In this document: piece by piece, positions 9,084 to 58,547 of the stretch | Position numbering within the stretch: the first letter of the stretch is position 1 | How the letters are laid out: every line of letters begins with the position of its first letter | Source of the DNA: Phyllobacterium zundukense | Lineage (GTDB): Bacteria > Pseudomonadota > Alphaproteobacteria > Rhizobiales > Rhizobiaceae | Direction of reading: 5' to 3' | Assembly (NCBI RefSeq): GCF_025452195.1 | Contig: NZ_CP104973.1 | Span: 2,215,001-2,279,000 of the forward strand | DNA: 64,000 nt | Position numbers and translations under genes: made by a program | Notes under the pieces: generated by a model | The model's database searches: none | Told to the model about the DNA's origin: nothing | What the model saw: only the letters and a program-made list of their open reading frames with translations

Positions 9084-9216
9084 GGGCTCATATCCACATC
9101 ACTTGCCGGTGCGTCTCCTCCTCCCATTGCGCGCCCGCAAGTGTTCCCCTCTGGAGGTATAGCCGGAAACGGCACCTTCAAAACTTAAGGCCGGGCAATT
9201 GTCCGGCCTCTTTTCT
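9084..9216 (+). ncRNA. abcR: AbcR-like small regulatory RNA
   Basis: The 333-base gap after lsrB holds no ORF but ends in a strong terminator (9187-9216). Upstream of it lie a pyrimidine stretch, tctcctcctccca (9115-9127), in the loop of a weak gtgcg/tgcgc stem, a cacttgccggtg hairpin, and a gccg-gaaa-cggc hairpin (9161-9172). AbcR RNAs of Rhizobiales (the alpha-r15 family) sit beside lsrB/vtlR, use such anti-Shine-Dalgarno loops to repress ABC-transporter mRNAs with Hfq, and are of this size. The 5' end is a guess. Confidence 0.6.
9187..9216 (+). terminator. Rho-independent terminator of the AbcR-like RNA
   Basis: A 7-bp stem aggccgg/ccggcct with loop gcaattgt, followed by a U-rich run (cttttcttttc). 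Confidence 0.8.
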
Positions 9217-32942: not shown

Positions 32943-32945
32943 GTA

Positions 32946-33058
32946 GATGTTGGGTTCTTCTCCTCCCAGATACCCCAACATCGAATGTACTGCACCTCCT
33001 CCCGCGGTACATTTACAATCAGGACCGCTGCACCTCCTCCCGCAGCGGTCCTTTTTTA
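32946..33058 (+). ncRNA. Three-hairpin RNA with anti-Shine-Dalgarno loops (cuckoo-like)
   Basis: Three stem-loops lie in tandem. SL1 is 32946-32982 (9-bp gatgttggg/cccaacatc, loop tctcctccc). SL2 is 32984-33013 (10-bp aatgtactgc/gcggtacatt, loop acctcctccc). SL3 is 33021-33052 (11-bp aggaccgctgc/gcagcggtcct, loop acctcctccc), followed by six T, thus also the terminator. The stems differ while the loops are the same. Exposed CCUCCUCCC is the hallmark of the alphaproteobacterial cuckoo family (CcsR RNAs of Rhodobacter), which usually show two such hairpins and are linked to stress responses. No ORF fits. The T-run overlaps the stop of the DUF1003 gene. Confidence 0.75.
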
Positions 33059-46137: not shown

Positions 46138-46153
46138 ACAAATGTTCAATATT
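46138..46153. promoter_or_regulatory. Shared 16-base motif, copy 1 (upstream of the SAF gene)
   Basis: acaaatgttcaatatt, 60 bases before the ATG at 46213 and just after a -35-like TTGACT (46127-46132). It matches the motif at 51660-51675 at 15 of 16 positions. A binding site of the SorC-type regulator is the obvious guess. Confidence 0.5.
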
Positions 46154-46212
46154 CGATGTCTTGATTGACCAGCCTCGAAGTCCCCATCAGAGGCTGGCAC
46201 AGGGAGGCATTG

Positions 46213-47532
46213 ATGGCTACGAATGTTGCATTGACGGGATTGGCGCGGGACATGCAGGCGCGGGCGGAAACGGGCCGTCCGATCCGCATCGGCCTGATCG
46301 GTTCGGGCGAGATGGGCACCGATATCGTCACGCGTGTGGCGCATATGCCCGGCATCGAGATCGGGGCGATTTCCGAACTGAACATGGCCAATGCCCTGAA
46401 GGCCGTCGACATCGCCTACCAGGAACAGGGCCATTCGCGCGAGGTGTCGAATGCGTCGGCGCTGACGGAAGCGATGGAGGCCGGCAAGATCGCCGTCACC
46501 GATGATGCCGGTCTGATCCTTGCGAACGATCTGATCGATGTGGTCATCGATGCGACCGGGGTGCCGGCGGTCGGGGCCGAGATCGGCCTGAAGGCAATGG
46601 AGCACGGCAAACATCTCGTCATGATGAATGTCGAGGCGGACGTGACCATCGGCGCGTACCTCAAGAGCGAGGCCGACCGGCTCGGCGTCACCTATTCGCT
46701 GGGTGCCGGCGATGAGCCGTCCTCATGCATGGAACTGATCGAATTCGTCTCGGCCATGGGCCATCCGATCGTCGCCGCCGGCAAGGGCAAGAACAACCCG
46801 CTCAACATCGATGCCATACCCGACGATTACGAGGAAGAAGCCAGGCGCCGCCACATGAATGTGCGCATGCTGGTCGAGTTCGTCGACGGCTCGAAGACCA
46901 TGGTGGAGATGGCGGCGATCGCCAATGCCACCGGGCTCGTCCCCGACAAGCCGGGCATGCATGGTCCGGCGGCAACGCTCGACCAGCTGTCGAAGGTGCT
47001 GGTGCCGGAAAAAGACGGCGGCGTGCTCTCAAGGGTCGGTGTCGTCGACTATTCGATCGGCAAGGGCGTGGCGCCGGGCGTCTTCGTCGTCGCCGACATG
47101 TCGCATCCGCGCATCTCGGAGCGCATGGAGGACCTGAAGATGGGCAAGGGTCCGTATTTCACGTTCCATCGGCCCTATCACCTGACCTCGCTCGAGGTGC
47201 CGCTGACCTGCGCCCGCGTCGTGCTCTACGGCAAGGCCGACATGGTGCCGCTGGCCAAACCGGTTGCCGAGGTCTGTGCCGTCGCCAAGAAGGACCTGAA
47301 ACCCGGCGACCGGCTCGATGCGATTGGCGAATATTGCTACCGCGCCTGGATCATGACCGCTGAAGAAGCACGAAGCGCCGGGGCCATCCCCTGCGGCCTC
47401 TTGCAGGGCGGCAGCGTCACCCACCCGATCAAGAAGGGTGAACTCATCACCAGCGCCAATGCCGCCCCCGCGCAAGGCTCCAAGATCGTCGAACTCAGGG
47501 CCCGCCAGGACAGGCTGGTTTATGGGGCGTAA
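46213..47532 (+). CDS. SAF-domain, homoserine-dehydrogenase-like NAD(P) oxidoreductase
   Basis: A 439-residue protein with an N-terminal NAD(P)-binding domain like homoserine dehydrogenase (RIGLIGSGEMGTDIVTRVAH at about 24, then VIDATGVPAVGAEIG) and a C-terminal SAF domain (about 345-425) of the kind found in sugar-acid dehydratases. AGGGAGG is the ribosome site. It opens the E1/E2/PTS gene set. Its coding sequence looks richer in G/C at third positions than its neighbours, a hint of transfer. The reaction is unknown; oxidation or isomerisation of a sugar or sugar acid is plausible. Confidence 0.85.
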   Translation: MATNVALTGLARDMQARAETGRPIRIGLIGSGEMGTDIVTRVAHMPGIEIGAISELNMANALKAVDIAYQEQGHSREVSNASALTEAMEAGKIAVTDDAGLILANDLIDVVIDATGVPAVGAEIGLKAMEHGKHLVMMNVEADVTIGAYLKSEADRLGVTYSLGAGDEPSSCMELIEFVSAMGHPIVAAGKGKNNPLNIDAIPDDYEEEARRRHMNVRMLVEFVDGSKTMVEMAAIANATGLVPDKPGMHGPAATLDQLSKVLVPEKDGGVLSRVGVVDYSIGKGVAPGVFVVADMSHPRISERMEDLKMGKGPYFTFHRPYHLTSLEVPLTCARVVLYGKADMVPLAKPVAEVCAVAKKDLKPGDRLDAIGEYCYRAWIMTAEEARSAGAIPCGLLQGGSVTHPIKKGELITSANAAPAQGSKIVELRARQDRLVYGA

Positions 47533-47572
47533 GCCTCGAAAGCGTCTCTAAAATCAGACAGGGAGTGCCGAT

Positions 47573-48611
47573 ATGGCATCCGCCAGAAATTCAAGCGCCA
47601 AGCGCCATGACGATGGTAGCAACCTTCCCTTCGCATTTCGGCATTATCCGCCGGAGCAGCTGAAGGAAGCACTGCGCAAGATGTATCTGATACGTCGCTT
47701 CGAAGAGGGCGCAGAGGAGTCGTATACGCGCGGTCTTATCCACGGCACCATGCACCTCTCCATCGGTCAGGAAGCGAGTGCGGTCGGCATTTCGATGCCG
47801 CTCGCCGAAGATGACATGATCACCTCGACGCATCGCGGTCATGGTCACTGCATCGCCAAGGGTGCGGAAGTCTCGAAAATGTTCGCCGAATTTTTCGGCA
47901 AGGAAACCGGTTACTGCAAGGGCCGTGGCGGCTCCATGCATATCGCCGACGTCTCCAAGGGCAATCTCGGGGCGAACGGCATCGTCGGGGGCGGTATCCC
48001 CATTGCGGTTGGCGCTGCTCTGTCCGCAAAGAAGCAGAAGAACGGCAAGGTCGTCATCTCCTATTTCGGCGATGGCGCCAACAATGAGGGCGCGTTTCAC
48101 GAAGCGCTCAACATGGCTTCAATCTGGAAGCTGCCGGTGGTCTTCGTCTGCGAGAACAACGGCTATGGCATGTCCACTTCAACCAAGCGTTCAACGGCTG
48201 TTGCCAACGTTGCTGATCGCGCGGTCGCCTACAACATGCCGGGCGTTGTCGTCGATGGTAACAATCTCTCCGATGTCGCCGAAGCCTCACACGATGCGGT
48301 GGAGCGGGCGCGTCGGGGTGAGGGACCAACCCTCATCGAGTGCAAGACCTATCGTCATCGCGGTCATTCGAAGAGCGACCGCAACCGCTACCGGACAAAA
48401 GAGGAGATCGAGGACTGGATCAGCAATCGCGATCCGATCCATCTGTTCGAAGATCAGCTGAAGGAATTCGGTTTCGTAACTGACGCCGACATTGCGGCGA
48501 TCTCGCGCGGATGCCGAGAAAGAGATCGCAAACGCCATCGAATTCGCCAGGAACAGCCCATCGCCTACCCTCGATAACCTGACACGCGACGTTTACACGG
48601 TTGAAATTTGA
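47573..48611 (+). CDS. acoA: Acetoin/pyruvate dehydrogenase-type E1 alpha subunit, frameshifted near the 3' end
   Basis: A ThDP-dependent E1alpha: [40 protein letters not shown] and the ThDP motif [15 protein letters not shown]. After VTDADIAAI (about 48504) the frame breaks. Removing one base near 48503-48505 restores [20 protein letters not shown] and a C-terminus VYTVEI ending at TGA 48609-48611, 345 residues in all, with the E1beta ATG overlapping that stop (TGATG). As read, the frame stops at 48577 with a foreign tail. It closely resembles acetoin dehydrogenase AcoA; an acetoin-like 2-hydroxyketone or a 2-oxoacid is the substrate class. Confidence 0.85.
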
Positions 48612-49609
48612 TGGACGAGATAATCCGCGAACTGAGCTATTCGCAGGCAATCCAGGAAGCCATGGCCATTGCCATGGAGGCCGATGACCGCGTGTTTCTG
48701 ATGGGCGAGGATATCGGCGTCTACGGCGGCGCTTTTCAGGTGACCGGTGACCTCGTGCATCGTTTCGGTGAAGACCGGGTGATGGATACGCCCATCTCCG
48801 AGCTTGGCGGTGCGGGCGTTGCCGTCGGTGCGGCCTTGACCGGAATGCGGCCGATCTTCGAATTCCAGTTTTCGGATTTCGCCGCGCTGGCGATGGAACA
48901 GATCGTCAATCAGGCGGCGAAGATTCGCTATATGCTCGGCGGCGCTGTCTCGGTGCCTCTGGTGATGCGTTTTCCCGCCGGCTCCGGTACAGGGGCAGCG
49001 GCGCAACACAGCCAAAGCCTTGAAGCGTGGTTCGGTCACGTACCTGGCCTGAAGGTTATCCAGCCGTCGACACCGTATGATGCCAAGGGCATGCTGCTCG
49101 CGGCTATCGAAGACCCGGATCCCGTCATGATTTTCGAGCACAAGCTGCTCTACAAGATGAAGGGTCACGTTCCGGAAGGGCATTATACCGTGCCGATAGG
49201 CAAGGCTGCTGTCGTACGCGAAGGAACTGACCTGACCATCGTTGCTTCGGCCATCATGGTTCACAAGGCACTGGAAGCGGCGCGTGAGCTCGAGAATGAA
49301 GGCATCAATGTCGAGGTCGTCGATTTGCGCACCGTACGTCCGATGGACAAGGAAACCATTATCGCCAGTGTCAAAAAGACGTCGAAGCTGATGTGCGTTT
49401 ATGAAGGCGTGAAGACGCTCGGCATCGGGGCGGAAGTCAGCGCGATGATCGCCGAAAGCGAGGCCTTTGACTATCTCGATGCGCCTATCGTGCGCCTTGG
49501 TGGTGCGGAAACGCCTATTCCCTATAATCCGGAGCTAGAGAAGGCCACGGTGCCGCAAGTGCCTGGTATCCTGAAGAGTGCTCGCGATCTCGTTAAAGGG
49601 ATACGTTAA
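48611..49609 (+). CDS. acoB: Acetoin/pyruvate dehydrogenase-type E1 beta subunit
   Basis: A 332-residue transketolase-like E1beta subunit. Landmarks are [38 protein letters not shown], the [20 protein letters not shown]hDP-side loop, and the C-terminal [15 protein letters not shown] domain. The ATG at 48611 overlaps the upstream stop of the corrected E1alpha frame; a TTG one codon earlier is possible but unnecessary. It pairs with E1alpha and the lipoyl protein downstream (3-base gap). Confidence 0.93.
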
Positions 49610-49612
49610 GCC

Positions 49613-50938
49613 ATGCCCGTCGAGGTCATCCTTCCCAAGGTCGACATGGATATGGAAAGCGGCCAGATTTCGCGCTGGTACGCCAAGGATGGCGAAGCTG
49701 TCACCAAAGGGCAGGTGCTGTTCGAAATCGAGACTGACAAGGCCGCCATGGAAGTGGACGCGCCGTCTTCGGGCATTTTACGCAATGTCACGGCGGCGGA
49801 GGGGACGACAGTTCCTGTCGGCCAGGCTGTAGCGTGGATATTTGCCGAAGGTGAGGCTTTCACGGCTGTGGCACCAACAAATATTGCAGATGCACCGGCA
49901 GTAGTTGCGCCAGAGGCAAAGCCTGCGGCGGAATCAAAAGAAACCCCGCCTGCAACGACGGTAACGATCGCCGGTAAAGCCGACGGAGTTCGTGCAACGC
50001 CGCTTGCCCGGCGGGTTGCCAAGGAAGCCGGCATTGATCTGACATCGGTTTCAGGCTCGGGACCTAAGGGACGCATCCAGAAGAAAGATGTCGAAATTGC
50101 CACCCCGCAGGGTGCGGCGGCCACGAAGCCAGTTGTACAGGTTCGCGAACCTGCCGTTCAAGCCGGTGCTCCGCTTCATGCGGCATGGCTGCGTGAAGGC
50201 AAGAACTCGGAGCTTGCACCGCTTGTCCTGATCCATGGGTTCGGCTCCGATCTCAACAGCTGGAGACCGATGCTGGGCGGTGGAACGCTGGACAATCCGA
50301 TCCTTGCCATCGATCTGCCCGGTCATGGTGCTTCGCCGCACACCGTTCCAGATGACCTGCATGCGATTGCCGAACTGGTTGAGCAAACCGTTGCTGCCTG
50401 TCACTCTGGACCAATAATCCTGGTGGCACATTCGTTTGGCGGCGCGGTTGCGACCGAAGTGGCTGCCCGCAGCCATCTCGACATTCGTGCGCTGGTTCTG
50501 ATGGCATCAGCCGGGCTTGGACCTGAAATCAATGGTGCGTTTCTGTCGGGGTTCGTCCGCGCCCGTACCGAGCCGAGCCTCGTTGCGTGGATGAAGCAGC
50601 TGGTGCAGGATGAAAGTCTTTTGACCAAGCCATTTATCAGCGCAACGCTGGCTCAATCGCAGAACGTGGCTTTGCGCGACGCTCAGCAGCTCGTTGCCGA
50701 CCGTTTTTTCGCTGACGGAACGCAGGTCATCGATGTCAGGTCGACCCTTGCCAACTTGACCATTCCGGTCCGTGTGATTTTCGGAGCAGCCGATCGGGTG
50801 ATCCCGGCGACACATGCCGCCGGGCTGCCGGGCGAAATCGCTGTGCATCTCTTTGCCGGGACCGGACATATGCCGCAGCTGGAACAGCGAGAAAAGATCA
50901 TGCGGATACTGGCAGAGATCAGCCGTTCGGTAGCGTAG
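49613..50938 (+). CDS. acoC: AcoC-like E2 hybrid: lipoyl domain + E3-binding domain + alpha/beta hydrolase
   Basis: A 441-residue fusion. Residues 1-78 are a lipoyl domain (IETDKAAMEV, lipoyl Lys43). Residues 124-160 are the peripheral-subunit (E3) binding domain (VRATPLARRVAKEAGIDLTS). Residues ~175-441 are an alpha/beta hydrolase (LVLIHGFGSDLNSW; nucleophile elbow VAHSFGG, Ser274; DLPGHG; GTGHMPQLEQ with His). The usual CoA acyltransferase catalytic domain is replaced by the hydrolase, as in acetoin-dehydrogenase AcoC. The E3 partner must come from elsewhere. The 3' end overlaps the convergent gene by 20 bases. Confidence 0.9.
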   Translation: MPVEVILPKVDMDMESGQISRWYAKDGEAVTKGQVLFEIETDKAAMEVDAPSSGILRNVTAAEGTTVPVGQAVAWIFAEGEAFTAVAPTNIADAPAVVAPEAKPAAESKETPPATTVTIAGKADGVRATPLARRVAKEAGIDLTSVSGSGPKGRIQKKDVEIATPQGAAATKPVVQVREPAVQAGAPLHAAWLREGKNSELAPLVLIHGFGSDLNSWRPMLGGGTLDNPILAIDLPGHGASPHTVPDDLHAIAELVEQTVAACHSGPIILVAHSFGGAVATEVAARSHLDIRALVLMASAGLGPEINGAFLSGFVRARTEPSLVAWMKQLVQDESLLTKPFISATLAQSQNVALRDAQQLVADRFFADGTQVIDVRSTLANLTIPVRVIFGAADRVIPATHAAGLPGEIAVHLFAGTGHMPQLEQREKIMRILAEISRSVA

Positions 50939-51558
50939 TGCTGCTCGACTTCGGCGAAACGAGCGCCCGCTGAATGGCACTGCGGGCTGAAGCCAGATTT
51001 GGCATGATCCAGTTGGGCTCCGCGCCGAGGAACCTGTCGAGAAAGGCGATCGCTTGATCTGGAATCTCGCGGACGTTCTCGCGGTACGACCACCATGTGC
51101 GCAGATCGTCCGCGCATGCGTCGATCTTCGGAGTGGTACCGAATTCCTGCTCGCAAATTGCGGCGATCGCGCCGACACAGTAATTGGTGTAGAGGAACCC
51201 TTCGGGCCAGAACGCGATAATCTCCTGCATTTCTGTCAGCTGCGATTCTGCTCTGCTTGGGATGGCTTCGGACCGTTGCTGGTCCTATGGTGATAAGCTC
51301 TTTGAGCACAAGGCCCGCAGCGAAGATGATGAAATCCTTGCGATCAATCTGGGCATAGGACTTTTGTTGTTCAACCGTCTCGACCCAGTTGAGAAAAGCC
51401 TTGGTCAGCCTGGTTTCATCGATGGTAAAATGATAACCATAATGCTCCGCAATCAGCGCGGCATTCTTGCGGAAAGCCATGCGAAACCAACGCAGTTGAC
51501 GAAGCCGGTGCCGTAAATCCGGCATATGGACCAATTCGTCTCTGAACAGAAAATCCAT
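50919..51558 (-). pseudogene. Hypothetical protein, interrupted by one-base frameshift
   Basis: Two minus-strand frames make one protein: 51558-~51270 (MDFLFRDELVHMPDLRHRL... KDFIIFAAGLVLKELI) and ~51270-50919 (SRAESQLTEMQEIIAFWPEGFLYTNYCVGA). Dropping one G of the pair at 51270-51271 (plus strand) joins them as GPATVEAIPSRAESQ, giving about 212 residues. I do not recognise the family; the segment FWPEGFLYTNYCVGAIAA looks conserved. Divergent from the GutM gene. It may be a sequencing error or a true pseudogene. Confidence 0.6.
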
Positions 51559-51644
51559 GCCTTCTCACCTTTAAATTCATTGTATCACGTCATACGCTGT
51601 GATGCAGCACAAGCCAAGTTTTAACAGAACCGAAATCATACATA

Positions 51645-51675
51645 TTGACATTACAAAAAACAAATGTTCTATATT
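51645..51675 (+). promoter_or_regulatory. Putative promoter with shared motif, copy 2 (upstream of the PTS operon)
   Basis: TTGACA at 51645-51650 and a TCTATA-like -10 after 17 bases give a good sigma-70 promoter. The motif acaaatgttctatatt (51660-51675) overlaps the spacer and -10; it matches 46138-46153 at 15 of 16 bases. A repressor bound here would block transcription of the PTS operon. Confidence 0.55.
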
Positions 51676-51728
51676 TTTTCGTTCGATCATAGCATATGTT
51701 TGCGGTCGGGCGTTGGGAGGTTGAAGAC

Positions 51729-52163
51729 ATGGCAATGTGGCAATGGGGATTGCTGGCCCTTGGGATTTTGTGGGCGTTGCAATCACTGGGCGTCTGGTAC
51801 CAGATGCGCCACTACAGCGATGTGATGAAGGGCATCACTTCCAAATACAATGATGGTTTTGTTGGCGCGGGCAATGTTCGCGGCCGTTTTGGCAAAGGCG
51901 TGATCGTTCTCATTCTCGTCACGCCGGACCTCGTGGTTCAGCGTTTTCTCGTGATGAGCGGCAGATCAGTTTTTGCGAAATTCAAGCGGCGCGAGGAGTT
52001 TGAGGGTATCTCATTGAGTGCATTGCGCACCGATCCTGCGATGACGGGTCTGGGGGAGCCGAATATCGCCAAGGCCGCGGAGCGTGCAATCGAACAGATC
52101 GACAAGGCCAGGGCCGAGCCGAAACGGTCCGGTCTAATCGGGATCAAGCCAGTCAACGCATAG
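51729..52163 (+). CDS. gutM: GutM-like glucitol operon protein
   Basis: A 144-residue protein of the glucitol operon activator (GutM/SrlM) family: one N-terminal membrane helix (3-20), then a soluble domain with VRGRFGKGVIVLILVTPDLVVQRFLVMSG. In enterobacteria GutM activates the glucitol PTS operon with SrlR. Here no SrlR is adjacent, and the SorC protein may play that part. GGGAGGTTG precedes the ATG. It leads the PTS operon. Confidence 0.82.
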   Translation: MAMWQWGLLALGILWALQSLGVWYQMRHYSDVMKGITSKYNDGFVGAGNVRGRFGKGVIVLILVTPDLVVQRFLVMSGRSVFAKFKRREEFEGISLSALRTDPAMTGLGEPNIAKAAERAIEQIDKARAEPKRSGLIGIKPVNA

Positions 52164-52204
52164 GGACGACCGTTTGAAAAACGGTCGATAAGGAAGGAGG
52201 GAAC

Positions 52205-52963
52205 ATGTCAATTTTAACAATGCTGGCGCAACATGCGGACATCGCCGCGCACCATATTTCGGTGGCGGGATCGATGGTCTCCGATGCGGCGCTCCACGGC
52301 AAGCAGGCCATCACGCATGCGGGCAACGATCTTGTCGTGCTTGCGCAATCGACGGGAGATATCACCGTCGAGGAATTCAAGGACAAGCTGAAGAACGTCC
52401 AGCAGGAGGAGCAACTCGGCTGGCTGACCAACGTCGGTAAATACTTTATCGGTATCTTCCAGAAGGGCGGCGAGGTTTTCGCCGGATTTGTAACAGGCAT
52501 TATCCCGACGCTTGTCGTGCTGATGACCGCATTCTACGCTTTGACGGAGCTTGTCGGCGAAGAACGCGTGCATGGTATCGCCCGGGGTGCAGGCCGTATC
52601 GCGCTGACGCGCTACACCGTCTTGCCCGTGCTGTCCGTCTTCTTCCTCACGAACCCGATGGCTTATACGTTCGGTTCATTCCTCGAAGAAAAGCACAAGC
52701 CCGCGTTCTACGATGCGGCCGTATCCTATGTGCATCCGCCGCTTGGTCTGTTCCCGCACATTAATCCCGGCGAATATTTCGTCTGGGGCGGTATTCTCGT
52801 CGCGCTTCTCGAACTTGAGAAAAAAGGCGCGGTTCCCGTCGGCTATCACATCAACGTCGCCATCTGGTATGCGCTCGTTGGTCTGGTTGTCATCCTTCTC
52901 AAGGGCATGCTGACCGAGCGTATTACTGCCATCATGGCGCGCCGTCAGGGCATTGAACTTTAA
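52205..52963 (+). CDS. srlA: PTS glucitol/sorbitol-type permease IIC (SrlA-like)
   Basis: A 252-residue IIC-type integral protein of the glucitol PTS family. The typical IIC part begins near residue 75 (GWLTNVGKYFIGIFQKGGEVFAG) and runs through LTELVGEERVHGIARG, RYTVLPVLSVFFLTNPMAYTFG and PGEYFVWGGILVALLELEKKGAVPVGYHI. About 65 residues precede the part that matches E. coli SrlA (187 residues). AAGGAAGGAGG is the ribosome site. It is the channel through which the unknown polyol enters. Confidence 0.9.
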   Translation: MSILTMLAQHADIAAHHISVAGSMVSDAALHGKQAITHAGNDLVVLAQSTGDITVEEFKDKLKNVQQEEQLGWLTNVGKYFIGIFQKGGEVFAGFVTGIIPTLVVLMTAFYALTELVGEERVHGIARGAGRIALTRYTVLPVLSVFFLTNPMAYTFGSFLEEKHKPAFYDAAVSYVHPPLGLFPHINPGEYFVWGGILVALLELEKKGAVPVGYHINVAIWYALVGLVVILLKGMLTERITAIMARRQGIEL

Positions 52964-52984
52964 GTCGGGGCGGGGAGAAGCAAA

Positions 52985-54010
52985 ATGTCAAAGACCTATA
53001 AGGCAGTAAAAATTTCCAGAGGCAGCAATGGTTGGGGCGGCCCCCTGGTCATTCAGCTGACGCCTGAGCGCAACAAGGTCGTGTCCGTCACCGGTGGCGG
53101 CATTCATCCCGTCGCACGCCGCATTGCAGAACTCACGGGCGGAGAGGCGGTTGACGGTTTCAAGGCGCCGCCGGTTGAAGGAGAGATGGGCGTTGTTGTC
53201 GTCGACTGCGGCGGTACGGCCCGCTGCGGTGTTTATCCACGCAAACGTATTCCGACCGTCAATCTGACGCCGGTCGGCCAAGCAGGACCGTTGGCGCAGT
53301 TCATTACTGAGGATATCTACGTTTCAGGCGTGAAAGAGGCCAATATCGAGATGGCTGATGGATCGCAAGCTGCTGCGGTTCCGGGAGCAAGATCGTCCCA
53401 GGACTCGCCGCCCACGCCCGCAGAACTTGCCGCATCCATGGCAAGCCGGACTGCAGCGTCGGACAACGGTGAAGGTGGGTTAATAGGCTTTATTAGCACT
53501 ATCGGCCGAGCTATGGGCCGTGTGGTCGGCATTTTCTTCAATGCCGGTCGCCGTACCATCGATCAGGTCGTGCGCAACGTCCTGCCGTTCATGGCGTTTG
53601 TGACCATGCTGATCGGCTTCATCCTTTATACCGGGATTGGCGATGTGCTGGCGCAACCAATGGGACCGCTTGCCAACAATATCGTCGGTTTGCTGATCCT
53701 ATCAGCCATCTGCGGCCTGCCGTTCCTGTCGCCGATCTTGGGACCAGGTGCAGTTATCGCCCAGGTTATCGGTGTGGCGATTATCGGACCGCAGATTGCC
53801 AACGGCACGATTTCACCGGCAATGGCTCTGCCTGCACTGTTCGCCTATAATACGCAGGTGGGTTGTGACTTTGTTCCGGTTGGTCTGGCGTTGGGTGAAG
53901 CCAAGCCCAAGACGATCGAAATCGGTGTGCCAGCGGTTTTGATCAGTCGCCAGATCATGGGCCCCGTATCGGTCGTCATAGCCTGGATCGTCAGCCTGAT
54001 CGTATTTTGA
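52985..54010 (+). CDS. srlE: PTS glucitol/sorbitol-type IIB-IIC' subunit (SrlE-like)
   Basis: A 341-residue SrlE-like protein: an N-terminal cytoplasmic IIB domain (1-120, VDCGGTARCGVYPRKRIPTVN holds the phosphorylated Cys in its CGG/RCG segment) and a C-terminal membrane part (about 170-341) with GLPFLSPILGPGAVIAQVIG and NTQVGCDFVPVGLALGEAKP. It passes the phosphate from IIA to the sugar. It begins 21 bases after srlA. Confidence 0.9.
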   Translation: MSKTYKAVKISRGSNGWGGPLVIQLTPERNKVVSVTGGGIHPVARRIAELTGGEAVDGFKAPPVEGEMGVVVVDCGGTARCGVYPRKRIPTVNLTPVGQAGPLAQFITEDIYVSGVKEANIEMADGSQAAAVPGARSSQDSPPTPAELAASMASRTAASDNGEGGLIGFISTIGRAMGRVVGIFFNAGRRTIDQVVRNVLPFMAFVTMLIGFILYTGIGDVLAQPMGPLANNIVGLLILSAICGLPFLSPILGPGAVIAQVIGVAIIGPQIANGTISPAMALPALFAYNTQVGCDFVPVGLALGEAKPKTIEIGVPAVLISRQIMGPVSVVIAWIVSLIVF

Positions 54011-54040
54011 GTTCACTAAGAAGAAAAAGAGGTTCGCCAT

Positions 54041-54418
54041 ATGTCAGTCCTATTGAAAACACGGGTAACAGCCGTTGGGCCTGAGGTGGCGGATCTTGCC
54101 GAGGGAGGCGTTGTCATCCTGTTTGCGGATGGCGCGCCGCCTGAGCTTGCAGAAGTTTCGATCCTGCACGCTGTAGAGGGCAAGCCTTCTGACGAGACAC
54201 CGCCAGTGGGGGCCGCAATCCGTATTGGTGACGTATCTGCCAGCATCACGGGTATTGGCGACTATGCCTGGCAGAAGGTCAAAGATATTGGACATGTGGT
54301 GATTACGTTCAATGGGTCCGACCAAGTTGAACGCCCAGGTGAAATTTGCGCATCGGAAGTCGATACGGCTGAATTGGTATCGGCGTTGAAAATTGGAACG
54401 ACGATTACCATCGGGTAA
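54041..54418 (+). CDS. srlB: PTS glucitol/sorbitol-type IIA subunit (SrlB-like)
   Basis: A 125-residue IIA protein of the glucitol family. The His in VSILHAVEG is the probable phosphorylation site; GDVSASITGIGDYAWQKVKDIGHVVITFNG is typical of the family. It accepts phosphate from the HPr domain of the fused enzyme I encoded next and hands it to SrlE. AAGAAAAAGAGG precedes the ATG. Confidence 0.9.
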   Translation: MSVLLKTRVTAVGPEVADLAEGGVVILFADGAPPELAEVSILHAVEGKPSDETPPVGAAIRIGDVSASITGIGDYAWQKVKDIGHVVITFNGSDQVERPGEICASEVDTAELVSALKIGTTITIG

Positions 54419-54441
54419 TGAATTATCGAAGAGAGATTTGA

Positions 54442-56433
54442 ATGGAACGCTCGACAATAGTGCGGGTGCATGACGGATTGCATGCGCGGCCAGCCACCAG
54501 ATTTGTCAAACTCGCAAAGGGTTTCGAATCGGATATCGAGCTGATCAAGGCCGACAAATCCGTCAGTGCAAAGAGTTCCGTGAAGCTGATGCTGCTGGGC
54601 GTCAAAGAAAACGAGACAGTTACCGTAAGGGCGCGTGGTGCGGATGAGATCGAGGCTATCGAGGCACTGATCGGATACCTTGAAGATCCGCATGCAGGCA
54701 CGGCAGAGGAGGAAGGAGCTGAAACAGCATCCGTCGAAGCCGCCTCTGTTCGGCCCAAGGCCTTCTCGGCAAATTCCAACGCCTCAGCCTCGGGCAAATT
54801 GCGCGGGGTCGCCGCCAGCGAAGGCTTTGCCATCGGACCAGCCTTCGGCTTTTTCCCGGGGGAAATCAGACATGAAGACCGCCTGCTCGCAGCGGACGAA
54901 ATACCGGCAGAAACCAGCCGGCTGACCCAAGCTTTTGCGACGGTGCAGCATCGTATGGATATGTCATTGGCCGCGACGGATCTTGCAGAAAGCGACCGTG
55001 GCATTATCGCCGCTCTCAAGGATATTGCCTGTGACGATGAACTCACACAGGCTGCAGAAGCGCTGGTGAGAGAAGGCATGGATGCGATTTCTGCCGTCAT
55101 TGGCGCCACGTCACGAATTGCGGCGGATTTCGCTTCAATGGATGATCCTTACCTCAATGCCCGGGCTGATGACGTAAATGCAGTCGGGCGGCAGATTTGC
55201 CTTGCGCTGCTGGGGCAGGACGATGCCAATCTTGACGCTATTCCTTCCGGTTCAATTCTTATCGCCGACGATATCGGCGCATGGGATCTGGCCCGCGCGC
55301 CATTGAAGCGTATTGCCGGTGTGATATGCGGCCATGGTGGTGCTACATCGCATGTCGCGATCATTGCCCGAGCCCACGGGATCCCTGCGGTTCTCGGGCT
55401 TGGACATTCCGTGCAGGAATTGCAGCAGGTCAAGAGCGTTGCGCTGGATGGCAATAATGGAGATGTCTTCCCCGATCCGGACCAGGTGACGATCGATCGT
55501 TTCCATGTGCAAATCGGCGTAGCCGAAACGGAAAGGCAGGCATTGAAGGCTTATAAGGATATCGTACCGAAACGCGCCGACGGAACGATCATCGAGATCG
55601 CAGCCAATCTCGGCTCACTGGAGGAGATCGAAGCGGCGCAGGAAGCCGGTGCCATGGGCGTTGGGCTATTTCGCACCGAACTGCTCTTCATGCGGCACAT
55701 TCACTTGCCATCTGAAGATTTGCAGACCGAAACCTACACTACGCTTGCCAAAGCGTTCGCGCCATATCCTGTGATTGTCCGCACGCTGGATATCGGCGGC
55801 GACAAGCCGATATCCGGTATTGATTTTCCGGATGAAGAAAATCCGTTTTTGGGCTGGCGCGGTATTCGCATGTGCCTCGACCGTCCGGATGTTTTCAAAC
55901 CGCAATTGCGTGCGCTCCTGCGTGCCGCCGTACATGGCAACATCAAGGTCATGTTGCCGATGGTCTCGGATCTTGGCGAAGTTCGCGCTACGCGCAGCCT
56001 GATCGACGAGTGTGCCGCAGAACTCAAAGCAGAGGGGAGGGACTACGCGAATTTCGACCTTGGTGTCATGGTCGAGACACCAGCAGCCGTCATGATTGCA
56101 CCCATGCTGGCCAAAGAGGTTGCGTTCTTTTCCATCGGTACCAATGATCTGACCCAATACATCATGGCAGCTGATCGCCTCAACCCGACAGTTGCGAAGT
56201 TGAATGACGTGACGCATCCGGCGGTAATGACAGCTATCGAACTTACGGCGAAAGCCGGTGTCGAGGCTGGAATCATGGTCGGTATGTGCGGCGAGGCAGC
56301 TGGCCGCGCTGATCTCATCCCGGCATTCGTCAAAATGGGGCTGACGGAACTCAGCATGAGTCCGGCCTCCATTCAACGCGCAAAGAAATGCGTTTTGGAA
56401 CTAGGGCAAATGGGGAATCAAGAAGGCGAATAG
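54442..56433 (+). CDS. ptsI: HPr-enzyme I fusion of the sugar PTS
   Basis: A 663-residue fusion of both general PTS proteins. Residues 1-85 are HPr (VHDGLHARPATRF with His14; KSSVKLMLLGVK). Residues ~115-663 are enzyme I: active-site His304 in GHGGATSHVAI, GLFRTELLFM, the KPISGIDFPDEENPFLGWRGIR segment, and GTNDLTQYIMAADR near the end. PEP phosphorylates His304, which passes the phosphate to the HPr domain. With this protein the operon is self-sufficient. The last 33 bases overlap the convergent gene. Confidence 0.94.
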   Translation: MERSTIVRVHDGLHARPATRFVKLAKGFESDIELIKADKSVSAKSSVKLMLLGVKENETVTVRARGADEIEAIEALIGYLEDPHAGTAEEEGAETASVEAASVRPKAFSANSNASASGKLRGVAASEGFAIGPAFGFFPGEIRHEDRLLAADEIPAETSRLTQAFATVQHRMDMSLAATDLAESDRGIIAALKDIACDDELTQAAEALVREGMDAISAVIGATSRIAADFASMDDPYLNARADDVNAVGRQICLALLGQDDANLDAIPSGSILIADDIGAWDLARAPLKRIAGVICGHGGATSHVAIIARAHGIPAVLGLGHSVQELQQVKSVALDGNNGDVFPDPDQVTIDRFHVQIGVAETERQALKAYKDIVPKRADGTIIEIAANLGSLEEIEAAQEAGAMGVGLFRTELLFMRHIHLPSEDLQTETYTTLAKAFAPYPVIVRTLDIGGDKPISGIDFPDEENPFLGWRGIRMCLDRPDVFKPQLRALLRAAVHGNIKVMLPMVSDLGEVRATRSLIDECAAELKAEGRDYANFDLGVMVETPAAVMIAPMLAKEVAFFSIGTNDLTQYIMAADRLNPTVAKLNDVTHPAVMTAIELTAKAGVEAGIMVGMCGEAAGRADLIPAFVKMGLTELSMSPASIQRAKKCVLELGQMGNQEGE

Positions 56434-57153
56434 GCCTGACAAGGCTTTCACCTTATCCGGTGCGCCGATTGCCTGATTGAATTTGTCCTCGCGGGCCTGC
56501 AAAGCCAATAACGCGCTCTCGACCAATCTTTCGTCGCCCGGTTCATGATCTGCATAGGTGGCAAGACCGATCGCAAGGGCGATGGCGGAAAAGCACAAAT
56601 ACTGGGTGTCCAGATCCGGCTGCTGTCCGGTATAGCCGGGCAATGGCAAATGGGCCGGTTGATACTGTGATTGCAGCTCGATGGCCAGTCGGGCGCATGC
56701 TTCCGCAATGTCGTTCAGATCGCCATCCTTAGCGCCAGACAACAAAGCCTCGTGGCGGCGAATCACTGTCGCATGCACGGATGCGAATGTTGATTCGTGA
56801 ATGAGCGCATTGCGTGATCCCAAAACGCTCAGGATACGCTTCGTAAGGTAGTAGACGTCGCGCCGGAACAGCGCCTCGCCTTTGCTGGCATCGACGGGAA
56901 AATAGACATCGAGACCACGCGCTTCGATGGTTGTCGAATGGGCAGCCGGATCTTGCGAAACCAGAGAGATCGAAATTGTCTCTGCGGCCGTCAAAGCCTT
57001 GTCCATGACGCGGGCGGCCTTGCCGAACAGAAGATCCGGCAGATCCTGATGAACGGGCTTGCTATCCTGCCGGCTTGCCCTGATCAGGTGGCGTACATCG
57101 CGCAGCCGGTCTTTCAAACTGACGACAATATCGCTTGAAATATCCCGGATCAT
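56401..57153 (-). CDS. Hypothetical 250-residue cytoplasmic protein, PTS-cluster associated
   Basis: A 250-residue soluble protein, no signal peptide or membrane helix, rich in helix-forming segments (KRILSVLGSRNALIHESTFASVH; ARLAIELQSQYQPAHLPLPGY). I recognise no family. It overlaps the 3' end of ptsI by 33 bases on the other strand and starts 155 bases from the divergent SorC regulator gene. It could be a further part of the polyol system or its regulation; this is context only. Confidence 0.7.
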   Translation of the reverse strand: MIRDISSDIVVSLKDRLRDVRHLIRASRQDSKPVHQDLPDLLFGKAARVMDKALTAAETISISLVSQDPAAHSTTIEARGLDVYFPVDASKGEALFRRDVYYLTKRILSVLGSRNALIHESTFASVHATVIRRHEALLSGAKDGDLNDIAEACARLAIELQSQYQPAHLPLPGYTGQQPDLDTQYLCFSAIALAIGLATYADHEPGDERLVESALLALQAREDKFNQAIGAPDKVKALSGLFAFLIPHLP

Positions 57154-57307
57154 GATGGCGTACCTCTGCGCGCAAGTGGATAATCGTTTGTACCTTTTTT
57201 TCTTGGCTTGCTAAACAACATTCTCGTGAGGTGTAGTGTGCAGGTCGCGCCGGCTTTGATGCAGCATTGCTGCTTTGGAGGAACGGGAGCGATCAAAGGG
57301 GGGATGA

Positions 57308-58336
57308 TTGAGCGATCGACGCAAGCGAACGAATGGTACGGCGAAGAGCCTCCAAAAGACTCCTCTGGATGTGGGGCAGCCGGACACCAAGATCAGCCGG
57401 ATGCGTATGCGCGCCGCCTGGATGTACTATATCGAGCAGATGACGCAGAACGAGATAGCCGAAATCCTCGGCGTCGGACGCGTGACCATTGTGCGCATGC
57501 TGGCCGAAGCGCGGGCGCGCAACGAGGTCAAGATCGGAATCCAGGGCTATCTTTCGGACCTCGTCGCACTGGAAAGGCAGGTTGAAAAGCAATTCGGTCT
57601 CGACAAGGTGATCATCGCGCCATTGTCCCATCCGGATAACGACCCGATCCCGGCGATAGCGGCAGCCACCGGAGACTATCTTTCCGGGATCGTCAGCAAT
57701 GGCATGCGCGTCGGCGTCGGTTGGGGGCGGACGCTTCTCAACACCTTGTCCTATCTCGAAGCACGGGCGCTTGAGAACTTTACGGTTATCTCGCTGCTTG
57801 GCGGCATCAGCCAGCCACGGCGGTTCAACCCGGCGGAATTTGCCTGGCAATTCGCACAGTTGTTCCAGGGCGATGGCTATCTCATTCCCGCTCCTGCCAT
57901 GGTGGACAGTATCGAGACCAAAACCGCCTTGATTGAACGCTGCGGCCTCAAAAGCGTGTTCGAGATGGCCGAGGATCTAGACCTCGTGCTTCTGAGTGTA
58001 GGAGCCATCGAAACAGCGTCGAGCACGCCCTATCACATCGGTTTCCTTAATCAGGGACATCAGGCTTCCCTGGCGGAGCGTGGCGCAGTTGGCGATCTTT
58101 TGTTCCATTTTTACGACAAACAGGGCCGGCTGGTGGATCATCCTATCCATGACCTCGTCATGTCCGTTGGCATCGACACGGTGCAACGCGTGCCGGCGCG
58201 GGTATTGACATCTGGCGGCAAGGAAAAGATCAAGGCGCTTTATGGCGCTATGGCGCTCGTTCGTCCGACAGTGTTCATCACCGATGAGGAAAGTGCCCGC
58301 CGCTTGTTGGTGCTTGCCGAACAGGAAAATGGTTGA
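57308..58336 (+). CDS. SorC/DeoR-type sugar-binding transcriptional regulator
   Basis: A 342-residue regulator of the SorC family: N-terminal HTH (MTQNEIAEILGVGRVTIVRMLAEA at about 45-65) and a C-terminal sugar-phosphate-binding domain (90-335) with GVGWGRTL and LLSVGAIETASSTPYH. Family members include SorC, DeoR of B. subtilis, LsrR and EryD, which sense phosphorylated sugars. The start is a TTG at 57308 behind AAAGGGGGGATG; a later Met is possible. It lies at the end of the PTS cluster and is the best candidate to bind the shared motif at 46138 and 51660. Confidence 0.88.
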   Translation: MSDRRKRTNGTAKSLQKTPLDVGQPDTKISRMRMRAAWMYYIEQMTQNEIAEILGVGRVTIVRMLAEARARNEVKIGIQGYLSDLVALERQVEKQFGLDKVIIAPLSHPDNDPIPAIAAATGDYLSGIVSNGMRVGVGWGRTLLNTLSYLEARALENFTVISLLGGISQPRRFNPAEFAWQFAQLFQGDGYLIPAPAMVDSIETKTALIERCGLKSVFEMAEDLDLVLLSVGAIETASSTPYHIGFLNQGHQASLAERGAVGDLLFHFYDKQGRLVDHPIHDLVMSVGIDTVQRVPARVLTSGGKEKIKALYGAMALVRPTVFITDEESARRLLVLAEQENG

Positions 58337-58470: not shown

Positions 58471-58547
58471 GGGCCTGTAGCTCAATTGGTTAGAGCCGGC
58501 GGCTCATAACCGCTTGGTTGGGGGTTCGAGTCCCTCCGGGCCCACCA
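58471..58547 (+). tRNA. tRNA with CAT anticodon, probably tRNA-Ile2 (lysidine)
   Basis: A 77-nt cloverleaf including the encoded CCA: acceptor gggcctg/cgggccc, D-loop agctcaattggttagagc, anticodon stem-loop ggcgg-ctcataa-ccgct with anticodon cat, and T-arm ggggttcgagtccct. The cgcttggtt after the anticodon resembles E. coli tRNA-Ile2 rather than elongator Met, so TilS-modified isoleucine is likelier. Not separable from Met with full certainty. Confidence 0.9.

Follow-up and report, generated by a model that had tools for sequence, protein, structure and literature searches.

A candidate catabolic pathway for 2-C-methyl-D-erythritol in Phyllobacterium zundukense

Two adjacent operons of Phyllobacterium zundukense lie in a stretch of 64,000 nucleotides (the window; contig NZ_CP104973.1, positions 2,215,001 to 2,279,000) inside one of the five contigs of a 6.41-Mb genome. 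They encode a predicted type II 1-deoxy-D-xylulose 5-phosphate (DXP) reductoisomerase (DXR-II), an acyloin-dehydrogenase-like complex (E1-alpha, E1-beta and E2), a glucitol-type phosphotransferase system (PTS) and a SorC-type regulator. The best reading of the locus, which we consider probable, is a catabolic pathway for 2-C-methyl-D-erythritol (ME).

In the proposed scheme, the HPr-enzyme I fusion (HPr-EI), SrlB, SrlE and SrlA would import ME while phosphorylating it to methylerythritol phosphate (MEP), and DXR-II would act in the catabolic direction (MEP + NADP+ -> DXP + NADPH). The E1-alpha/E1-beta/E2 complex, together with a housekeeping E3, would then cleave the product (DXP + CoA + NAD+ -> acetyl-CoA + D-glyceraldehyde 3-phosphate + NADH). 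The SorC-type regulator would sense MEP or DXP and control both operons via ACANATGTTC sites. Sequence comparison establishes the family of each enzyme, the conservation of the DXR-II residues, the common motif, the co-inheritance and the exchange of importer type; from these we infer the substrate, the direction, the cleavage reaction, SorC binding to the motif and the inducer. DXP synthase and the first steps of the MEP pathway involve the same intermediates (MEP, DXP, glyceraldehyde 3-phosphate and a C2 unit), but the direction proposed here is the opposite one, with an oxidative, CoA-forming cleavage instead of a decarboxylating condensation. We found no description of ME catabolism by this route in the open-licence literature searched, and we know of no DXP-cleaving, acetyl-CoA-forming complex. 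The cluster is built from known families, in the manner of a PTS-fed polyol operon, and its chemistry is apparently undescribed.

Results

An earlier note on this DNA had called the first gene a SAF-domain oxidoreductase. The gene is there but the label does not hold, as its best Pfam match is the DXR-like family DRL_cat (PF21135, E 2.9e-68) and the SAF match falls just under its cut-off (20.1 vs 21 bits). At E<=0.001 its only PDB matches are 3upl_A (E 4.8e-217) and 3upy_A (E 5.3e-217), over residues 1-435; 3upy is the DXR-II of Brucella abortus (PMC3847144, of which we use excerpts here). The named loci nearest to the window oxidoreductase come from Phyllobacterium. All ten residues named in those excerpts are retained in the window (G121, E174, F178, K191, K193, T229, H250, R320, Y322 and V351), and they are nearly invariant across 99 cluster loci and 28 stand-alone loci, where these and later counts of fetched loci include some loci fetched twice and many near-identical Mesorhizobium. 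K191, K193, T229, H250 and R320 are present in 99/99 cluster loci and in all five Bacillota loci. The exceptions are Y322 in one and V351 in four cluster loci, and G121 in two, F178 in one and Y322 in two stand-alone loci. Four more distant proteins each lack several of the ten. A distant DXR-II-like oxidoreductase (25%; L104, G000:C4:166887-167468) has seven of the ten missing in the alignment.

By family, structural match and residues, then, we assign the window oxidoreductase to DXR-II. This would make the substrate readable, which the earlier note had held it was not, and it points to MEP. The excerpts of Carretero-Paulet et al. 2013 (PMC3847144) describe DXR-II as an isoprenoid biosynthetic enzyme converting DXP to MEP, and a term search of its main text returned no instance of 'catabol', 'phosphotransferase' or 'transport'. 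The Brucella enzyme and ours belong to the same family and share the named residues, but here the gene sits in a catabolic-type operon with an importer, a lyase and a sugar-type regulator, whereas the role described in those excerpts is biosynthetic. DXR is given as reversible in an excerpt of PMC13001223.

What the cluster enzyme does can be approached through a second copy. DXR-I was not found in this genome by a search that was positive in 10 of 14 control genomes, and another contig carries a second DXR-II that is 98.0% identical over 1330 bases, hardly beyond the gene. In the five Phyllobacterium genomes compared, cluster and stand-alone copies are 95.7-99.5% identical in nucleotide sequence within a genome and at most 94.1% identical between genomes. 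Each within-genome pair forms sisters in the tree (with weak support, 92/62, for the P. onerii pair), and the Phyllobacterium stand-alone genes group with cluster-type genes. On this comparison the two DXR-II copies of a genome are homogenised in 5/5 cases, and gene conversion or repeated replacement of this kind would imply interchangeable activity. The stand-alone DXR-II must make MEP, if the isoprenoids of this genome come from the MEP pathway. From homogenisation with such a copy in a genome without DXR-I, we infer that the window DXR-II interconverts DXP and MEP.

The two operons are joined by a shared motif, ACAAATGTTCNATAT, which starts 75 bases ahead of DXR-II and 36 bases ahead of the GutM open reading frame. 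Its exact form occurs at only two sites in the whole 6.4-Mb genome (window positions 46138 and 51660), one ahead of each operon. Mismatched sites number 40 genome-wide (two with one mismatch and 38 with two), compared to seven in all for a reversed control pattern. The motif was first found in the window and afterwards tested on relatives. There, its core ACANATGTTC lies <=160 bp upstream of 87/99 cluster DXR-II genes, 50/52 GutM genes and 1/27 stand-alone DXR-II genes, where shuffling predicts 0.06, 0.05 and 0.01; with near-copies removed the counts are 29/41, 23/25 and 1/22 (expected 0.013, 0.013 and 0.017). We interpret the motif as a putative shared operator through which both operons would be co-regulated, presumably by binding of the SorC-type regulator.

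The sole exact stand-alone site belongs to P. endophyticum (L008), whose cluster copy (L009) is without the site and is preceded by ABC genes of the kind seen at stand-alone loci; the upstream flanks look swapped, as if both DXR-II genes had recombined. When one mismatch is allowed, 3/27 stand-alone genes carry the core, the two extra being L191, where the contig ends after DXR-II and a kinase adjoins, and L227. The latter (genome G494) is a second DXR-II (58%) with an adjoining SorC-like regulator and FGGY-like kinase and no E1 in the stretch, besides its motif-like site with one mismatch, and is perhaps another catabolic variant.

We followed the genes through a family set of 161 genomes and a phylum set of 398, scoring the best 4-5 candidates per genome in the phylum-set searches for E1-beta and DXR-II. 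The family set has SrlE in 20 genomes, DXR-II-type proteins in 112, DXR-I in 59 and cluster-type E1-beta in 24. We set aside G307, G490, G420, G514 and G515, whose closest DXR-II-type protein reaches only 35-37% identity, and did not count as DXR-I holders G429 and G521, in which the DXR-I matches are weak and partial. None of the 59 DXR-I holders has SrlE. The 24 E1-beta genomes comprise all 20 SrlE genomes plus G043, G475, G476 and G496, which retain DXR-I and have a DXR-II adjoining E1. These four, together with G478, are the five genomes in which a close DXR-II accompanies DXR-I; G478 has its DXR-II almost at a contig end, next to a kinase of the type found in Sinorhizobium meliloti Rm41. 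In the phylum set SrlE occurs in 16/398 genomes: all 10 from the family of P. zundukense have E1-beta and DXR-II, and 0/6 from another class (one family) have either at the thresholds used.

This co-occurrence in 20/20 SrlE family genomes, together with the shared motif, makes a chance neighbourhood of the two halves very unlikely. The earlier note had proposed that they form one system, and had added that finding them apart in most related genomes would speak against it. They proved not to be apart in most genomes: 16/20 have E1-beta and SrlE on the same contig, no more than 20 kb from each other, and only in G477, G481, G540 and G512 are the two on different contigs. The outline given in the note, in which a polyol or branched/deoxy sugar is imported and phosphorylated and a ketone intermediate then cleaved, fits our scheme as well, and its remark that sugar PTS are rare in Rhizobiales agrees, for SrlE, which is what we checked, with 20/161 genomes. 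The earlier interpretation thus stands in part: the single system and the outline are borne out, while the unreadable substrate and the link to AI-2 are not supported. AI-2 and plain acetoin found no support as substrates in the proteins scanned, neither having been searched for specifically, and for AI-2 no gene family was searched for.

The cleavage step would fall to the E1/E2 complex, which resembles acetoin dehydrogenase (AcoABC) in having E1alpha/E1beta plus an E2 with an alpha/beta-hydrolase domain, and in its acyloin cleavage logic. Both DXP and acetoin are acyloins built on a CH3-CO-CHOH core. Unlike AcoABC, the complex is linked to DXR-II and a polyol importer, and its proposed substrate is DXP rather than acetoin; moreover, the aco-type regulator or acoX expected in aco operons is absent from the 11 cluster proteins scanned. 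All 10 cluster E1-alpha rows aligned contain THRGHGH, a type of motif that we take to be typical of acetoin dehydrogenases, and the presumed pyruvate dehydrogenase (PDH) of this genome has GYRDHGH. Among the alphaproteobacterial cluster loci compared, E1-alpha is 71-97% and E1-beta 76-98% identical. The window proteins are 60 and 63% identical to those of Priestia, and 43 and 46% identical to the presumed PDH. An excerpt of PMC3424233 reports that PDH can form deoxyxylulose and that aceE mutants make DXP in vivo; since a PDH-type E1 can build deoxyxylulose, the reverse cleavage of DXP would be chemically plausible. Fetched stretches of at least 8 kb with a cluster-type E1-alpha also have a DXR-II match in 99 of 100 cases (L198 is the exception). 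In Rhizobium sp. L51/94, thiamine biosynthesis genes (thiC, thiO, thiS, thiD and those for thiazole synthase and thiamine phosphate synthase) lie just beyond the cluster (L233, 16817-21317); E1 depends on thiamine diphosphate, and thiamine itself is made from DXP.

On the import side, MEP is the phosphorylated form of ME, a polyol, and glucitol-type PTS are polyol importers. According to its title, the 2004 paper by Testa, Cornish and Poulter reports that the sorbitol PTS transports ME into Salmonella. The window proteins contain HARP in HPr, GGATSH in enzyme I and CGGTARCGVYP in SrlE, presumably the PTS active-site motifs. Like the gut/srl sorbitol operon, the cluster has GutM, SrlA, SrlE and SrlB, so that IIA, IIB and IIC are all present beside GutM. 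It differs in having its own HPr-EI, a SorC protein instead of the classical regulator, and no sorbitol-6-phosphate dehydrogenase: as the earlier note had said, no lookalike of that enzyme occurs among the 11 cluster proteins scanned, and we rejected sorbitol as the substrate for this reason. The six SrlE genomes of another class mentioned above, without DXR-II and E1-beta at the thresholds used, also set the gut/srl type apart.

The cluster recurs in other taxa, in some with a different importer. One plasmid of Priestia aryabhattai (Bacillota) carries PTS, E1, E1, E2, E3, SorC-type regulators, DXR-II and an FGGY kinase, and in Terrarubrum and Pseudoroseomonas the PTS is divergent from DXR-II-E1-E1-E2. 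In place of the PTS, the loci of S. meliloti Rm41 and Agrobacterium CFBP7129 encode a PfkB-type kinase and an ABC transporter; they also contain lpdA and lipA. Relatives of the SorC protein, at 49-56% identity, also occur in ABC-type loci (L188, L189, L190 and L231).

Discussion

Substrate specificity is not readable from sequence, and the same architecture could serve another branched or deoxy polyol, such as 2-C-methyl-threitol, another branched tetritol or a 1-deoxy-pentitol, if DXR-II acted with relaxed specificity on its phosphate. The glycerol-3-phosphate dehydrogenase/oxidase and alcohol dehydrogenase genes that also lie in the S. meliloti and Agrobacterium stretches hint at such related polyols. 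However, the named substrate-binding residues are unchanged, and the cluster DXR-II appears homogenised with a stand-alone copy that groups with cluster-type genes in Phyllobacterium and so presumably makes MEP. We regard a different polyol as unlikely. Still less probable, in our view, is salvage, in which ME would be imported as MEP for isoprenoid synthesis and DXR-II would be biosynthetic. This genome has no DXR-I, so it needs a DXR-II for biosynthesis, and a single DXR-II is found in 6/20 SrlE genomes. Yet salvage has no need of DXR-II or of an E1/E2 complex; DXR-II adjoins E1 in 4/5 genomes that have DXR-I as well (the fifth, G478, has the contig end and kinase, with no E1-beta found); and the motif stands ahead of cluster copies, while its exact form precedes only 1/27 stand-alone copies.

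The complex could also be an ordinary acetoin dehydrogenase (or one for a diketone or AI-2) that merely neighbours a polyol PTS. Its E2 scores above the cut-off of the NCBIfam model for the E2 of acetoin dehydrogenase (NF011457), and some E1-alpha relatives carry the name acetoin oxidoreductase among the best 120 of 7962 homologues, all of which are at least 75% identical, with canonical acetoin dehydrogenases beyond that range. We give this explanation hardly any credence, because many alphaproteobacteria, and Priestia too, keep DXR-II, E1 and an importer together, and the motif is common to both operons.

Several observations nevertheless weigh against ME catabolism. The DXR equilibrium favours MEP, and no E3 was found in the window. 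E1-alpha is frameshifted after about residue 310 (window 48440-48580) when compared with L009, L013 and L014, each of which has one frame; a C-terminus resembling that of its relatives can be read one frame on. The conserved gene Hyp3 is likewise split by a frameshift. Both could be due to either sequencing error or decay, which look alike here. Among the SrlE genomes, we expected those without DXR-I to carry two DXR-II each, but only 12/20 do. Six have a single DXR-II and no DXR-I (G456, G415, G331, G540, G477 and G481), so that one enzyme must serve both roles there; G517 has two fragments, and G486 has no DXR-II match at threshold. In G456 the cluster itself is without DXR-II and the single copy stands alone, an arrangement that also points to interchangeable activity of the DXR-II copies. 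G512 has the PTS and DXR-II-E1 on different contigs, and in G478, which has both DXR-I and DXR-II, the family-set search found no E1-beta. Finally, Listeria, Ligilactobacillus and Enterococcus have DXR-II and PTS with no E1 in the fetched stretches, the Ligilactobacillus stretch having fsa and tkt genes instead; the cleavage step would therefore differ in these bacteria.

If ME is indeed broken down by this route, the E1/E2 complex would be a new enzyme activity and ME degradation a new food pathway. ME and its glucosides are made by plants, according to an excerpt of PMC11192765, and for a plant-associated soil bacterium such as this one, ME would thus be a carbon source of its own, derived from plants. 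A catabolic role could account for the many bacteria that keep DXR-II as a seemingly redundant isoprenoid enzyme, and it bears on the rescue of MEP-pathway mutants by ME in bacteria with such genes. DXR-II is reported both in bacteria with DXR-I and in bacteria using mevalonate, and in Finegoldia magna it is experimentally confirmed in a bacterium with no other MEP or mevalonate genes (excerpts of PMC3847144); a role in catabolism would account for all of these cases. It is tempting to speculate, though we would stop short of calling it probable, that DXR-II was at root a catabolic enzyme of ME degradation, that it spread with PTS or ABC/kinase importers in Alphaproteobacteria and Bacillota, and that it was recruited to isoprenoid synthesis where DXR-I was lost. 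Such an origin would explain why DXR-II is distributed patchily, why it occurs alongside DXR-I and why bacteria lacking the MEP pathway have it.

Gene content of the locus

The features of the locus are collected in Table 1. Profile and NCBIfam scans recovered the whole gene set in the order that the earlier note had given, with two corrections: its unknown protein (UnkM) is present but encoded on the minus strand, and Hyp3, on the minus strand between the operons, had been overlooked.

Table 1. Coordinates (window positions) of the two operons and their putative operators.
Feature	Position	Strand	Remarks
Putative shared operator 1, ACAAATGTTCAATAT	46138..46152	+	upstream of DXR-II operon
DXR-II (DRL; predicted DXP reductoisomerase type II)	46213..47532	+	PF21135 E 2.9e-68; PDB 3upl/3upy; ten named residues
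E1-alpha, acyloin-dehydrogenase-like complex	47573..48577	+	PF00676 E 9.7e-89; C-terminus frameshifted in this assembly
E1-beta	48611..49609	+	PF02779/PF02780; NF006667 406.1 bits vs cut-off 321
E2, AcoC type: lipoyl + E3-binding + alpha/beta-hydrolase	49613..50938	+	PF00364, PF02817, PF12697; NF011457 401.5 bits vs cut-off 307
Hyp3, conserved accessory protein	50919..51558	-	two frames here vs one frame in L009, L013
Putative shared operator 2, ACAAATGTTCTATAT	51660..51674	+	upstream of GutM-PTS operon
GutM	51696..52163	+	PF06923 E 8.7e-23
SrlA, glucitol-type PTS IIC	52205..52963	+	PF03608 E 8e-63; NF049923 above cut-off
SrlE, glucitol-type PTS IIB(C)	52985..54010	+	PF03612/PF07663; NF049924 above cut-off
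SrlB, glucitol-type PTS IIA	54041..54418	+	PF03829 E 2.8e-26
HPr-enzyme I fusion, presumed dedicated phosphoryl donor	54442..56433	+	PF00381 + PF05524/PF00391/PF02896; TIGR01417 above cut-off
UnkM, conserved all-alpha protein	56401..57153	-	no Pfam/NCBIfam match at E<=0.001
SorC-type sugar-binding regulator (Sugar-bind)	57308..58336	+	PF04198 E 5.1e-54; proposed sensor of MEP or DXP

Hyp3 and UnkM are conserved partners of the cluster. Hyp3 belongs to a family of ~210 aa found in 56 fetched loci of both PTS and ABC type (eight without SrlE in the same stretch). Its relatives have no Pfam match, and the AlphaFold model of an intact relative (pLDDT 87) has no PDB match at E<=0.001. UnkM occurs in 33 fetched loci, every one of which also carries HPr-EI or SrlE, and its all-helical model (pLDDT 76) likewise has no PDB match at E<=0.001. 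Many loci have a HAD-type phosphatase gene within the cluster or close to it (matches in 48 fetched loci, e.g. L137 26903-27571), but the window gave no match. Directly after the SorC gene is a tRNA-Met gene (58471-58547), a possible integration site of the cluster, and elsewhere the window carries the alphaproteobacterial sRNAs ar15 (9101-9214) and ar14 (32943-33057).

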